Below are positions 48,592-53,152 of a stretch of DNA of 64,000 nucleotides, in pieces. Each line of letters opens with the position of its first letter. The stretch's first letter is position 1. The notes under the pieces were generated by a model. That model did not search any database. It saw only the letters and a program-made list of their open reading frames with translations, and was not told the origin of the DNA. The stretch lies in the NCBI GenBank assembly GCA_005116745.1, contig SWDS01000006.1, forward strand, positions 793,222 through 857,221. Reading direction: 5' to 3'. A program made the translations under genes and the position numbers. The DNA is from Nitrospira sp. Its GTDB lineage: Bacteria > Nitrospirota > Nitrospiria > Nitrospirales > Nitrospiraceae.

Positions 48592-49485
48592 ATGAGTCTT
48601 GATTATGTCAAGTTTTCCAATGGATTTGAAAGGTTCATGCCAAAAGAATATCGAGACATGGTCGAACATGGGCCTTTTGGGAAGAAGGTCACTGTTTCTC
48701 AGATGGGGAGTTTCAAGGAAGCGTTGGAAGAACACCCTATGTGTGCCGGTTGCGCGATGACGCTCTTCATAAGACTTGCCATCATTGCTTTCCCTAACCC
48801 CGAAGATACTATTACTGTGGGGACAGCCGGTTGCGGTCGTCTGGCCATCTCTCAGGCAGCAATTCCATTTGTCTACGGCAACTATGGTGACCAAAATGGA
48901 GTCGCGAGCGGATTATCTCGTGGCCTTCGTCTTCGCTTTGGAGATAAGCCTAAGGATGTGGTTGTGATGGCTGGAGACGGTGGTACGGCGGACATCGGTT
49001 TCCAACAGGTGCTCCATTCGTGGTTCCGCAAGGAACGGTTTACGACCATCATGTTGGACAACGAGGTGTATGGGAATACCGGTGGGCAGGAAAGTGGTAT
49101 GACCAATCGCGGTGCCGTACTGAAAATGGCTCCCCTCGGCAAGAAGTTCGAGAAGATGGATATGCTGCAGATGGCTAAGGTTGCGGGTTGTGCGTATGTG
49201 GCGACAGTCGTGCCGAATAATCCGCGCCGTGTCGAAAGCGTCATTAAGAAAGCGGTGTTGATCGCTCGCGAAGTCGGGTCAACGTATATTCAGGCGTATA
49301 CCTCGTGCAATATTGAATACGCTATTCCGACTGACAAAGTCATGGAAGATGCGAAGACGGTCGAGAACGATCGATACCAGTTCACCGAGTATGTCAGCGA
49401 AGAGGCCAAACAGTATCTTGCCGAGCGCTATGGCTATAAGGAGTTCCTCCCCAAGCCAGCTGCCGCGATTCCCAACAAGGCCTAA
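48592..49485 (+). CDS. 2-oxoacid:ferredoxin oxidoreductase, beta (TPP) subunit
   Basis: This subunit binds thiamine diphosphate and an iron-sulfur cluster and splits or forms the C-C bond next to CO2. The TPP motif runs from MAGDGGTADIGFQQ to NEVYGNTGGQ (about 127-166). Cys51, Cys54, Cys81 and Cys239 are placed like the cluster ligands of the family. The five-gene operon resembles the pyruvate and 2-oxoglutarate enzymes of Hydrogenobacter and Nitrospira; which acid is used here cannot be decided by eye. 297 residues. Confidence 0.9.
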   Translation: MSLDYVKFSNGFERFMPKEYRDMVEHGPFGKKVTVSQMGSFKEALEEHPMCAGCAMTLFIRLAIIAFPNPEDTITVGTAGCGRLAISQAAIPFVYGNYGDQNGVASGLSRGLRLRFGDKPKDVVVMAGDGGTADIGFQQVLHSWFRKERFTTIMLDNEVYGNTGGQESGMTNRGAVLKMAPLGKKFEKMDMLQMAKVAGCAYVATVVPNNPRRVESVIKKAVLIAREVGSTYIQAYTSCNIEYAIPTDKVMEDAKTVENDRYQFTEYVSEEAKQYLAERYGYKEFLPKPAAAIPNKA

Positions 49486-49506
49486 GCGACCGAAGGAGAT
49501 TGCACA

Positions 49507-50235
49507 ATGGCAAAGCGCTTCAATATTCGAATGGCAGGTGTCGGCGGACAGGGCGTCGTGACGGGGTCTCACATCCTGAGCACGGCCGTGATCAATGCTG
49601 GAGGCGAAAGCACGATCGTACCGTTCTATGGGTCTGAGAAACGGATGGCGCCGGTTGAAAGTTATGTCCGTGTATCGGACGAACCGATTTATGAGATTGG
49701 CGAAATCACATTTCCTCACATCATCATTATTTTCCATCCTCAGGTCATTACCCACGGCAAATCGTACACGATGCCATTCTACTTCGGTTTAAAGGAAGAT
49801 GGGATTGCGTTGATCAATAATGATGGACCGATGAATCTTCATCGCGATCAGGCGGCTGAGCTGAAGGAAAAGCGCGTGAAGCTCTATTACTTTCCAGCGA
49901 CGAAGATGTCTTTGGAAGTCGCAGGCATGGATCTCGCCACCAACATGGCGCTAATGGGCTGTATTGGTGCGATTACAGGTCTCACGAATATGGTGGGGTT
50001 GGATCAGGCCGTCAAGGATCGGTTCCTCGGTAAAGGCTTTGTGGTGTCTGGCGGTACTGCCGCACTCGACAGTGTCGTTGAACGAAAGTTCAAGAAAAAG
50101 CAGGAGCTGATCGATAAGAACGTCGCCGTCATGCGGGCTGGATGGAACTATGCTGTCGATCACGGTTGGGCAGCGTCAGATGTCAAGCGCGAAGCCGAGC
50201 CAGTGGCCACTGAGCCGGCCACTGCCACTGCGTAG
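49507..50235 (+). CDS. 2-oxoacid:ferredoxin oxidoreductase, gamma subunit
   Basis: The gamma subunit completes the coenzyme A side of the complex. The 242-residue protein begins FNIRMAGVGGQGVVTGSHIL, the family signature, and has PFYGSEKRMAPVESYVRVSD. An Ala/Thr-rich end follows. GAAGGAG precedes the ATG and the gap to the beta gene is 21 bases. Confidence 0.9.
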   Translation: MAKRFNIRMAGVGGQGVVTGSHILSTAVINAGGESTIVPFYGSEKRMAPVESYVRVSDEPIYEIGEITFPHIIIIFHPQVITHGKSYTMPFYFGLKEDGIALINNDGPMNLHRDQAAELKEKRVKLYYFPATKMSLEVAGMDLATNMALMGCIGAITGLTNMVGLDQAVKDRFLGKGFVVSGGTAALDSVVERKFKKKQELIDKNVAVMRAGWNYAVDHGWAASDVKREAEPVATEPATATA

Positions 50236-50256
50236 CCGAGCCACAAAGGAGTCTTT

Positions 50257-50580
50257 ATGTACCTTGTAGCCAATGTCAATGTTGAAATCTGTGCATCGAA
50301 GAGCTGTAAGCTTTGCACGCAGTATTGTCCAGAAGCCAACACCATTCAATACAGTGAGGAGATGGGCAAAGAGCAAGGGTTTAAGTACGGGTCTGCCTAT
50401 ATCGCGGTAGACCGGTGTAAAGGCTGTGCCCTGTGCGTATGGGTCTGTGACAGCCTGGCCAAGAACAATGCTATTAAAATGACCATGATCGATCAGTTGC
50501 CAAAGGCAGCGTTGACGGACAATATTACCTACGGAGACAAGAGCACCACTGCAGTGCTTGCGAGCCCTATGGTTGGGTAA
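50257..50580 (+). CDS. 2-oxoacid:ferredoxin oxidoreductase, delta subunit (two 4Fe-4S clusters)
   Basis: This 107-residue ferredoxin-like subunit passes electrons between ferredoxin and the TPP site. Two cluster motifs are seen: C12, C17, C20, C24 (KLCTQYCP), and C54, C57, C60, C64 (CKGCALCVWVC). The spacing of the first set is slightly irregular. AAAGGAG lies before its ATG. Confidence 0.9.
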   Translation: MYLVANVNVEICASKSCKLCTQYCPEANTIQYSEEMGKEQGFKYGSAYIAVDRCKGCALCVWVCDSLAKNNAIKMTMIDQLPKAALTDNITYGDKSTTAVLASPMVG

Positions 50581-50596
50581 GGAAGGGGAGTCAGGC

Positions 50597-51361
50597 GTGG
50601 CAATTACACAAGATACCAGAGAGCGAATCATCGTGCCGGGTCCAGCAGGGTTCCATCCGCCGTCTGCGGCCCAGTTAGGTGTAGCTTTGCCGGATCCAGG
50701 ACAGGGGTTGTACTATGGCCTCCTTGAGCCGAATGAGGAGGTAGTCATTGAAGAGATGGCTCGCAAAATGCTGACGAGCCCGAATGCGACGATCTTTCCA
50801 GGTCCCCTCCTCTTGTGGGCGTGGAACGATCATGCCGTAGAAAAGGCGAAGGCCACGCTTGAAATTGCGGCCCAGATTCCTGAAGTGATGATCATCCCTA
50901 TGCCGGATTATCGGCCAAAATACCCGAAAATTGATCCTGAAGAAGTGATCAACCCTAATCATCCGAATCTGACGATCTGGGGCAATAAGATCGAAGCCTG
51001 CATCTTTATCGGTGTCCATTGTCACTATGCGAATCTCACCCTGAAGATGATCAGGGCAGGCACCAATTGCTGCACCATGGCCGTTTGCGCGGAGCAAGGT
51101 CATGAGGATGCGATGTTGACGATTCGAGACTCCGATACGCTCAAGATCAAGCGTGTTGCCCAGATTTTCAAGCGCGTCCGTGAGGAGCTAGGAATCAAGC
51201 TGCCGGAGAGCGGCGAAAATGTCCGTTTTACGGGCACACAATCAAAGGTGCATGGCGGTAAGACTCACACTAATCCAATGGCGTTTGCTCCGACTCCTGG
51301 TGGGACGGGGAGCGCAGCGATGTTTGGTCATTCTGCCGAGCAGATGAAGCGGGAAGGATAA
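50597..51361 (+). CDS. Fifth (epsilon-type) subunit of the oxidoreductase operon
   Basis: This 254-residue protein has no catalytic motif I know. It matches the idea of the extra small subunit found only in the five-subunit forms of these enzymes. Notable are a cysteine/histidine-rich stretch, CIFIGVHCHYANLTLKMI and AGTNCCTMAVCAEQGHED, and a Gly/Pro-rich end. GTG 50597 follows GGAAGGGGAG; the open frame before it overlaps the delta gene. Confidence 0.75.
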   Translation: MAITQDTRERIIVPGPAGFHPPSAAQLGVALPDPGQGLYYGLLEPNEEVVIEEMARKMLTSPNATIFPGPLLLWAWNDHAVEKAKATLEIAAQIPEVMIIPMPDYRPKYPKIDPEEVINPNHPNLTIWGNKIEACIFIGVHCHYANLTLKMIRAGTNCCTMAVCAEQGHEDAMLTIRDSDTLKIKRVAQIFKRVREELGIKLPESGENVRFTGTQSKVHGGKTHTNPMAFAPTPGGTGSAAMFGHSAEQMKREG

Positions 51362-51401
51362 GGCCGAGTGGCAATGCTCGAACTAGCCAAGAGGTGCAAT
51401 T

Positions 51402-52733
51402 ATGAGCGAGACTGAAGTGAAGACAAATCCGCAAGGCGACCCGATTACCAGCGTAGCGCCAGCGCCAAGTGCATCGAAAAAAGATCCGCATGGCGAAGCG
51501 AAAAGACAGCGAGTGGTGACGCCTGAGTATATGTTTCACGAGGCGCCACGGACAAAGGAATTCATCACCGGCAGCGAGGCTGCAAAAGAAGCAGTCCGTC
51601 GTTCGAATGTGGATTTGGCGATTGCGTATCCGATCACGCCACAGAGCGAAACCATGCAGCTTGTCGGTGTCCTCTATGGTGAAGGTTATGTGAAAGAGTA
51701 CTATCGTGGTGAGGAAGAAGTAGGTGTGATGGCGGCTATCGCTGGCGGCTCACGTGCAGGCGTCCGTTGCTACACTGCGACGGCCGGTCCCGGTACGTTG
51801 CGAGGTCTTGAAGGCATCGCCTCCTGGCCAGGCCACCGTCTTCCAGCCGTTGCCATGTTTACCTGTCGTGTCGTCAATGCCCCATTGGCAATTCAACCGG
51901 ACAACATTGAAGTGTCCTATCTGCTCAACTGCGGCATGATCGTGTTTCATGCTGAGAATCAGCAGGACATGTTTGACTTTACGATGGCCGGTTTCACGAT
52001 CAGCGAAATGAATGATGTCACGTTGCCCGTCGGGGTCTGCTGCGACGGTTTTTTCGTCACCCATGCTCGTGGGTATGTGCGCATGCAGGATCGTGGCATT
52101 AAGCTTCCGCCGCGCGAAGCCTGGCGCGGGGCTGTTCCTGTGCTGGATGCGGAGAATCCTCCCGCGCGTCTCTCTCGAGACGCCCCAGTCCAGAAGTCAA
52201 ACTTTATGGCGTACAACATTCACGCCGTCTGGCAACAAGAAGTCTGGGCAGCCGTTGAACGGTCGCGCAAATACATTGATCGATATATGGGCGGATTGCT
52301 CACTGCGGAGAACGTCGATGATGCCGAAGTGATCATCATTGCCTCCGGCAGCGCTGCCGCGCAGTCGCGCGAAGCCGTTCGACTCTGTAAAGAAAAGGGC
52401 ATGAAGGTCGGATTGATCAAGGTCCGCTCCCTCCGCCCGTTCCCGACCAAGGAACTCCGCCAGTTGTGCGGCAAGGCCAAGCTGATCGTGGTCCCGGAAT
52501 TCAACTACGTCGGCTGGCTGGCCAAGGAAGTGGCGACTGCCATCTACGGTTTCTCCAACGCGAAGATCATCGGTGGCCCGCGCGTGTACGGTGGTCAGTC
52601 GATGCCGGTGGAGTTAATCGTGGACGAAGTCGAATCAGGTGTGAGCGGTAAGAAGTCTACGAACGTTGCGATGTCGCAGATCATGGGTGGCGTCAATCCT
52701 GACGAAGTCGCTCACTTCATGCGCAGCATCTAA
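51402..52733 (+). CDS. 2-oxoacid:ferredoxin oxidoreductase, alpha subunit
   Basis: The alpha subunit binds the 2-oxoacid and part of TPP. The 443-residue protein has the family motif IAYPITPQSETMQ, EEEVGVMAAIAGGSRAG, and TATAGPGTLRGLEG, with a C-terminal domain (VIIIASGSAAAQSREAVRLC) after about residue 300. The first 60 residues are a Lys/Pro-rich extension with no counterpart in most relatives. The operon ends here at a strong terminator. Confidence 0.9.
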   Translation: MSETEVKTNPQGDPITSVAPAPSASKKDPHGEAKRQRVVTPEYMFHEAPRTKEFITGSEAAKEAVRRSNVDLAIAYPITPQSETMQLVGVLYGEGYVKEYYRGEEEVGVMAAIAGGSRAGVRCYTATAGPGTLRGLEGIASWPGHRLPAVAMFTCRVVNAPLAIQPDNIEVSYLLNCGMIVFHAENQQDMFDFTMAGFTISEMNDVTLPVGVCCDGFFVTHARGYVRMQDRGIKLPPREAWRGAVPVLDAENPPARLSRDAPVQKSNFMAYNIHAVWQQEVWAAVERSRKYIDRYMGGLLTAENVDDAEVIIIASGSAAAQSREAVRLCKEKGMKVGLIKVRSLRPFPTKELRQLCGKAKLIVVPEFNYVGWLAKEVATAIYGFSNAKIIGGPRVYGGQSMPVELIVDEVESGVSGKKSTNVAMSQIMGGVNPDEVAHFMRSI

Positions 52734-52865: not shown

Positions 52866-53114
52866 TTATCCCTGAATCTCGTCCTCGATCATCTCCTCGC
52901 TGTCCGGCATCCCATAGGCCACATACTTCGCATAGGACAGATAGATTCCCGCACTATCGGTCATGGCCTTCGAGCCGGAAGTCAGTCGAATGATCTTATC
53001 CGAACCGGGTGGCTCGACGTTTTGTAACATCGTGACATGGTCGTGCAGCAGTCGGATATAGCGCTCCACAGCCGACTCAACCTCTTTATAGGCCTTGAGG
53101 ATATCATCCGTCAT
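52866..53114 (-). CDS. Hypothetical acidic helical protein, 82 aa
   Basis: No family is recognised. The protein is helical, with acidic ends (SEEMIEDEIQG). GGAGG six bases before ATG 53114 supports translation. It lies between the oxidoreductase terminator and the Rsm22-like gene, which starts 38 bases away in the other direction. Confidence 0.65.
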   Translation of the reverse strand: MTDDILKAYKEVESAVERYIRLLHDHVTMLQNVEPPGSDKIIRLTSGSKAMTDSAGIYLSYAKYVAYGMPDSEEMIEDEIQG

Positions 53115-53152
53115 AGTTGTCCTCCGTAATAGACTGAGCATACACTAGGCCT

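Follow-up and report, generated by a model that had tools for sequence, protein, structure and literature searches.

The locus described here raises the question of what a fifth gene contributes to an operon coding for a TPP-dependent 2-oxoacid:ferredoxin oxidoreductase (OFOR), and whether its product serves to protect the enzyme from oxygen, which was one idea put forward in the first-pass annotation. The window, that is, the whole stretch of 64,000 nucleotides analysed, comes from a Nitrospira-like bacterium whose genome (3.86 Mb) is 99.96% complete.

The window operon and its counterparts

The operon is compact and occupies positions 48592–52733 of the forward strand, with gaps of 21, 21, 16 and 40 bp between its genes. 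It includes genes coding for the TPP-binding beta subunit (48592–49485, Pfam TPP_enzyme_C), which has an N-terminal extension of about 45 aa compared to the nearest solved beta and aligns to PDB 9bt4_C from residue 48; the gamma subunit (49507–50235, Pfam POR), which aligns to PDB 9bt4_E over residues 6–176 of 242 and has a longer C-terminus than the nearest solved gamma; a ferredoxin-like 2x[4Fe-4S] subunit (50257–50580, Fer4-type matches), whose match to the PorD_KorD subfamily (E 9.8e-8) is too weak to reach the cut-off of that model; the fifth subunit (50597–51361), a member of the CO_dh family with a DHS-like fold (PF02552, E 1.1e-35); and the alpha subunit (51402–52733, Pfam POR_N and PFOR_II). 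The open reading frame of the fifth subunit starts with GTG just downstream of the purine-rich GGAAGGGGAG and codes for 254 aa. It begins 16 bp after the 2x[4Fe-4S] gene and ends 40 bp before the alpha gene, in agreement with the near-zero spacing noted in the first-pass annotation. The gene is real, and its recurrence goes far beyond chance: a homologue is encoded in 38 of the 39 genomes searched (own genome included), mostly in two copies. With the alpha, beta, gamma, 2x[4Fe-4S] and CO_dh-family genes all in one cluster, the gene content is that of a five-subunit OFOR, of which the fifth gene encodes the delta subunit. No five-subunit OFOR was named among the PDB matches of the beta and gamma subunits.

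The subunit itself is already known. In print, the ferredoxin-like protein is designated epsilon and the CO_dh-family protein delta (PorD/ForD), so the names delta and epsilon given to these two genes in the first-pass annotation were swapped, and the word uncharacterised does not suit a protein with both a Pfam match and a published name; what does stand is that its role is not known in detail. Using the published letters, the window operon has the order BGEDA (D, fifth subunit; E, ferredoxin-like subunit). The five-subunit Por and For enzymes of Hydrogenobacter, Aquifex, Nitrospira and Leptospirillum consist of the same five genes, with delta belonging to the same CO_dh family, an assignment reported for Leptospirillum in 2008 (PMC2607301). 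In Aquifex aeolicus the five proteins are reported to co-purify as a complex, with delta present in the activity bands of both enzymes (PMC10052474, Table 2), and the same 2023 paper likens delta to the CODH/ACS epsilon subunit and calls its function "intriguing".

A second five-gene set is located on contig 8 of the same genome; it reads D-A-B-G-E and has a small gene, F, after it. The alpha subunit of this set contains the peptide TPSFFTGSEVIK, assigned to the pyruvate enzyme in the published work on N. marina. Since this other operon matches the annotated pyruvate enzyme, the window set is probably, by elimination and on the basis of annotation, the 2-oxoglutarate enzyme. Contig 2 (L036, 6765–9046) carries an alpha and a beta gene with no gamma or small-subunit genes in the stretch read; this pair is chimeric, since its alpha shares 85% identity with the contig 8 copy and its beta 91% with the window copy. 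Small protein F (89–91 aa, no Pfam match; for instance L035, 10473–10742) follows the five-gene set in 17 of the best 80 loci described below and is possibly the published ForF, the Hydrogenobacter order being given in print as forDABGEF. In the window, a convergent gene on the reverse strand (52866–53141) codes for a 91-aa protein with no Pfam match, which is a weak homologue of the contig 8 F protein (C8_F; 27% identity over 67 aa, E 1.6e-4 in a comparison of 14 sequences).

The second operon has the published order DABGE plus F, whereas the window order BGEDA differs from both DABGE and EDABG, as the first-pass annotation had noted with regard to Hydrogenobacter. The window-type order was found in six further loci of the same class (L166, L167, L168, L171, L172 and L175), DABGE in four (L169, L170, L174 and L180), and in L173 the D gene lies apart. 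The order in print for Leptospirillum is ABGED, locus L178 from Leptospirillum reads A-B-G-E-F-D, and the orders EDABG and DABGE follow from the locus tags of A. aeolicus (PMC10052474, Table 2). The published orders together with BGEDA make up four of the five cyclic permutations of one circular order. A random five-gene order falls into the cyclic class with a chance of 1/24, which makes tandem duplication with differential loss a likely cause. The order D-A-B-G-E-A-B, seen in Bacillota loci L093, L116, L119 and L142, is a possible intermediate of such a change, and D-G-E-A-B in L117 is not a cyclic permutation.

The fifth subunit also follows its own alpha subunit. In the operons with exactly one D and strong A and B matches, the D type agreed with the alpha type in 62 of 62 cases (11 window-type, 51 contig-8-like), and the beta type disagreed with the D type in 6 of 62. 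The correlation of D and A distances was 0.91, a value inflated by shared genome ancestry and reached in 0 of 999 permutations. This agreement in both type and distance supports the view of D as a specific subunit.

Family, conserved residues and fold of the fifth subunit

The fifth subunit matches Pfam CO_dh (PF02552) with 123 bits at a cut-off of 21, over profile positions 26–155 of 168; no NCBIfam model matched it up to E 1. It contains 5 Cys and 9 His residues in 254 aa (5.5%), which means that its earlier description as Cys/His-rich is only mildly true of the composition; Cys135, Cys142, Cys158, Cys159, Cys164, His141, His143 and His169 are clustered in residues 135–169. In an alignment of 82 sequences, obtained from 96 D sequences by thinning below 97% identity and dropping rows with X or shorter than 180 aa, residues H141, C142, H143, R153, C158, T160 and C164 are invariant (82/82), and C135 is identical in 90% of the rows. 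Residues 141–164 (51017–51088, forward strand) are marked as a putative metal or thiol site. Window-type D proteins have a C-terminal extension of about 50 aa, which the second paralogue lacks.

The structure model built with the 82-sequence alignment reached a pLDDT of 84 and a pTM of 0.82; a model from the single sequence (pLDDT 33) was useless and was discarded. The pLDDT is 84–98 in blocks spanning residues 11–100 and falls in the following segment, where conservation and pLDDT are 0.95 and 57 for residues 101–110, 0.81 and 50 for 111–120, and 0.98 and 76 for 121–130. This segment includes the most conserved stretch of the protein, residues 101–128 (YRPKYP..NPNHPNLTIW; 50897–50980, forward strand), a putative partner- or ligand-binding segment. 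Low confidence combined with the highest conservation is expected of an interface, and residues 101–130 may be ordered by a partner or ligand, with the shallow alignment as a possible contributor to the low model confidence.

In the fold comparison, the top five solved chains by Z were ACDS epsilon subunits, and seven epsilon entries (9c0t, 9c0r, 1ytl, 9c0s, 9c0q, 8riu and 3cf4) matched at Z 10.3–11.2 with an rmsd of 2.6–3.9 over 128–138 residues. Tied with them, within 1 Z of the top, are chains 8rja_B and 5t61_H of formylmethanofuran dehydrogenase (Z 10.7–10.8), which we take to be FwdB, and the TPP enzyme 7ct6 (Z 10.2). Further matches include the middle parts of TPP enzymes and Sir2, other folds of this DHS-like kind being tied or within 2 Z, and the fold common to all of them is the DHS-like nucleotide-binding fold. 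Due to these ties, the parallel with epsilon cannot be picked out on the basis of fold only. Foldseek likewise placed epsilon chains in its first five rows (9c0s_C with probability 1.00 and E 3.4e-3), none of its matches having an E-value as low as 0.001, and profile-profile comparison of D with three CdhB sequences gave a weak match (E 0.0014, probability 17%). No epsilon chain was found in the PDB by sequence, using either the single sequence or the D profile as a query.

Family and fold taken together, the fifth subunit belongs to the CO_dh (ACDS epsilon) family and has a DHS-like Rossmann fold. ACDS epsilon (CdhB; 1ytl, 3cf4, 9c0q-t and 8riu) belongs to the same Pfam family, is among the closest folds and, like the fifth subunit, is accessory to a low-potential CO2 enzyme, but its partner is CODH, whereas that of the fifth subunit is a TPP enzyme. 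The neighbours of the fifth gene are OFOR genes rather than CODH/ACS genes, and no CdhD was found in its genome. In the profile-profile alignment, C142 and C164 coincide with cysteines that all three bacterial CdhB sequences conserve, while H141 and H143 are absent from the CdhB sequences seen. The four archaeal PDB epsilon chains for which an alignment was shown lack the D cysteines, and the parallel may therefore not extend to the Cys/His site.

Relatives in anaerobes and beside other enzymes

Within the phylum, PF02552 was found above the cut-off in 108 of 245 genomes; among the matches listed, the strong ones belong to the class of the window and to a single Leptospirillum-like family, whose name is taken from its neighbour in the tree, L108; the few found elsewhere are weak. 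Viral contigs gave no match to the fifth subunit. A contig scan found at least 584 relatives, of which the best 80 were fetched; as these were ranked by similarity to one divergent Nitrospira D, counts among them do not represent prevalence. Their gene orders are DABGE (20), DABGEF (17), DABG (5), DA (6), DAB (1), DABBGE (1), DABGEAB (4) and DGEAB (1), leaving 18 loci with paired D and seven with a single D. The refuting condition named in the first-pass annotation has a mixed outcome: D does occur apart from five-subunit operons in the paired and single cases, some of which lie at contig ends.

Fourteen of the best 80 loci, chosen by title, come from lineages which we take to be anaerobic, namely Clostridia and other Bacillota, Desulfotomaculum, Chloroflexi, Dehalococcoidia, Hakubella, Acetothermia, Omnitrophota and Thermodesulfovibrionales. 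Most are metagenome-assembled genomes, and the L117 record is flagged UNVERIFIED_CONTAM. Eleven of them carry all five gene types (E being called on weak scores of 29–48 bits), two are DABG, and one is D-A at a contig end; D thus stands with A, B and G in 13. The L116 set adjoins SpoIIP, which fits a Bacillota origin, and in its phylum D-family matches at E 1e-20 were found in 16 of 299 sampled genomes, four of which were already known. Residues H141, C142, H143, C158 and C164 are kept in all 14 anaerobe copies. In the tree of D sequences, 12 of the 14 lie outside the fork that holds all the aerobic groups (support 86; outer forks 92 and 92), with L134 and L139, both Chloroflexi-type, inside it. 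This tree, made by a quick method without bootstrap and with a program warning of long branches meeting at the root, includes 107 of 124 D sequences and is rooted on four formate-dehydrogenase-linked ones; it has no Aquificota rows, L155 and L073 were left out, the contig-8 type was thinned to 14, and Nitrospinota were thinned to 16 plus L182 and L183. The earlier idea that five-subunit forms occur in few microaerophilic autotrophs therefore has to be abandoned, given sets with the same invariant residues in anaerobic lineages and family members beside formate dehydrogenase and a two-subunit Kor, and the published statement that delta occurs "exclusively" in five-subunit enzymes from Aquificaceae (PMC10052474) is too narrow.

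The anaerobe genomes encode, in addition, remoter members of the family. A sister subfamily within the CO_dh family, here called D4, was found in formate dehydrogenase operons beside FdhA in 10 of 12 loci (L186–L192 and L152–L154), the two exceptions, L148 and L155, having D4 at a contig end. The 12 D4 proteins examined have profile scores of 120–183. FdhA was assigned by Pfam scan in six loci and NuoF in two, the others being assigned by similarity to these. Nine of the 10 FdhA-linked loci also carry NuoE and NuoF, and in these nine the FdhA frame is interrupted by a TGA codon, in frame, within ARL*HA(P/T/S)TV, which we take to be the mark of a selenocysteine formate dehydrogenase, and judging from this motif these enzymes are probably selenocysteine-containing; in L153 FdhA is a single 1399-aa frame. 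D4 lies between FdhA and NuoE in L188, L190, L191 and L192. D4 and the OFOR-linked D are homologous (profile-profile E 7e-52) and share RPxYP, E(I/V)NPxHx(N/D)L, C142 and C164, but H141 and H143 are replaced in D4 and the partner enzymes (FdhA, NuoE and NuoF on one side, OFOR on the other) are unrelated. No paper on this link was found among open PMC papers; one retrieved paper deals with a different, membrane-bound formate dehydrogenase. The CdhB-type members in L149, L150 and L151 adjoin a CO dehydrogenase gene (Prismane family), and their profile finds PDB entries 1ytl, 9c0q, 3cf4, 8riu and 31ox, all named ACDS epsilon.

Other relatives are found in different surroundings. In L076 (3593–14565) and L078, two D genes and complex-I-like membrane genes come after KorA and KorB of a two-subunit Kor, and in several of loci L068–L075 a 478–501-aa protein precedes D3, with PFOR_II as the only Pfam match in L070. 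Among the 12 loci with a pair of D and D3, KorB (beta) matches were found in three (L076, L078 and L080), and no open reading frame contains the CxxCxxCxxxC motif, several of these loci being cut by contig ends; a universal ferredoxin-like partner, seen in none of the 12, was rejected. A D pair in L111 (4108–11668) adjoins an antiporter-like gene and DabA, a subunit of an inorganic carbon transporter, and L176 has the same layout. In L112, L114 and L115 a single D lies with genes for CobW-type GTPases, S14 and an amidohydrolase in what resembles a zinc-limitation cluster (L112 scanned); a reading of these D proteins as zinc-free replacements was dropped because they keep the cysteines.

Paired D genes with no OFOR genes in the stretch fetched are present in the Leptospirillum-like loci L085, L097, L099, L107 and L118, with recC adjoining the pair in L099. 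Three Nitrospinota genomes (L182, L183 and L184) likewise have a further D with no OFOR genes in the stretch fetched, which adjoins a phosphoribosyltransferase gene in L182. The L182 and L183 proteins fall into the window-type clade of the D tree, from which L184, a contig-end piece, was left out. The Nitrospina genome paper describes an OGOR without delta (PMC3578206), and the unlinked D may supply the missing subunit.

Possible roles of the fifth subunit

Three published observations bear on how a subunit of this family might work. The epsilon subunit of a methanogen CODH is described as mainly a single Rossmann fold which binds alpha and buries the D-cluster, an Fe-S cluster (PMC11474084); for bacterial CODH, electron exchange between this cluster and ferredoxin has been suggested, and the alpha/epsilon junction of an ethanotroph enzyme is where a ferredoxin domain of the 2x[4Fe-4S] kind docks (both PMC11493965). 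Fer4-type domains are present in the three main partner sets of the family, namely in CdhA, in NuoF or FdhA of formate dehydrogenase and in OFOR epsilon. Together with the burial of the D-cluster, this leads to our best explanation, which we hold with slightly less than even confidence: the fifth subunit would be a non-catalytic cap and clamp. Its DHS fold would dock on the catalytic core of the OFOR and close the Fe-S exit, covering an otherwise exposed [4Fe-4S] cluster, and would help to hold the ferredoxin-like subunit, so that electrons pass only through the latter. The cap would also be needed for assembly of the enzyme, as is suggested by the reported need for delta in heterologous expression of the Hydrogenobacter enzyme in E. 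coli (PMC3578206), and a lower reactivity towards oxygen would follow as a side effect, one that aerobic lineages exploited. Against the cap and clamp explanation count the weak sequence similarity to CODH epsilon, the ties in the fold comparison, the operons in which beta type and D type disagree, and the 12 loci with D and D3, which indicate that the ferredoxin-like partner is not universal; the invariant Cys and His residues, moreover, suggest more than a passive cap.

Oxygen protection would mean that the subunit evolved as a shield for the Fe-S clusters, allowing the reverse TCA cycle to operate in air; five-subunit enzymes are quoted, for instance in PMC8115632 and PMC10066037, as the reason why the cycle works there. 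Under oxygen Hydrogenobacter is reported to rely on five-subunit forms, and anaerobically on a two-subunit form (PMC8115632), a Sulfurimonas from an oxic plume has a five-subunit set resembling that of Aquificales (PMC10066037), and the concentration of the strong PF02552 matches listed in the window's class and the Leptospirillum-like family points the same way. Against this stand the A. aeolicus five-subunit enzymes, which are reported to lose 95% and 100% of their activity in air in vitro (PMC10052474), the sister genes associated with formate dehydrogenase, and the 13 anaerobe loci in which D with the same invariant residues accompanies A, B and G. As the majority of the copies from anaerobes lie apart from the aerobic groups, protection from oxygen is, on the evidence of the tree, unlikely to be the original role, and as a whole this explanation appears quite improbable; the Hydrogenobacter and Sulfurimonas cases leave room for a later use, and oxygen tolerance may fit as a later benefit. 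It is a little easier to credit, although still doubtful, that H141, C142, H143, C158 and C164 act as ligands of zinc, iron or an Fe-S cluster, or else provide a pair of redox-active thiols tuning or sensing the enzyme, possibly with a part in handling CO2 or bicarbonate. Such a site would agree with the identity of the five residues in 82 of 82 sequences, with their position in the model, where H141–H143 follow strand 134–138 at a helix start and C164 follows strand 159–163, the usual ligand edge of a Rossmann fold, with partners that are CO2-converting enzymes, and with the D pair next to DabA in L111, a layout repeated in L176. However, the formate-dehydrogenase-linked relatives, which keep C142 (12/12) and C164 (11/11 complete), replace both histidines, the archaeal epsilon chains shown have neither cysteine, and delta is said in print to have no known prosthetic-group motif (PMC3578206).

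The remaining two explanations seem very improbable to us. A nucleotide-binding subunit (for FAD, ADP or the ADP part of CoA), replacing the middle domain of the pyruvate oxidase or acetolactate synthase type that OFORs lack, would account for the many TPP-enzyme middle parts among the 50 fold matches listed (Z 9.3–10.2), which include oxalyl-CoA decarboxylase with ADP or acetyl-CoA and 2-hydroxyacyl-CoA lyases; yet the identity in the alignments listed is 5–14%, a similarity at the level of fold only, and Sir2 (Z 9.4–9.8) and transhydrogenase domain III match too. As to an assembly or maturation factor that is no functional part of the finished enzyme, the requirement in E. coli (PMC3578206) and the unlinked D genes in Nitrospinota and Leptospirillum-like genomes would suit it, but delta was reported in the activity-stained bands of both A. 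aeolicus enzymes (PMC10052474, Table 2).

The cap and clamp explanation can be extended to the whole family, if only as a speculation that we consider rather unlikely as it stands. The CO_dh family would then be a general accessory subunit of low-potential CO2-converting enzymes, each of which recruited one: Ni-Fe CODH, a probably selenium-containing molybdopterin formate dehydrogenase and TPP-dependent OFOR, three enzymes whose catalytic centres are unrelated, and Kor beside a complex-I-like membrane module. Its job would be the same in all of them, either to block the direct way out of the Fe-S cluster and hold the electron relay in position or to handle CO2 at the site of the shared C142/C164, and it would predate the aerobic reverse TCA cycle.

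Within the material searched, the anaerobe loci, the link to formate dehydrogenase, the fold match to epsilon and the cyclic gene orders are new. That the fifth subunit acts as a general structural partner is more probable than that it shields the enzyme from oxygen. Should it prove to be older than aerobic life in these lineages and common to formate dehydrogenases as well, the account of oxygen tolerance would need to be re-tested, with the anaerobe copies and the formate dehydrogenase operons as further systems for deletion and structure work, and the question would shift to what this subunit gives to several CO2-reducing enzymes.
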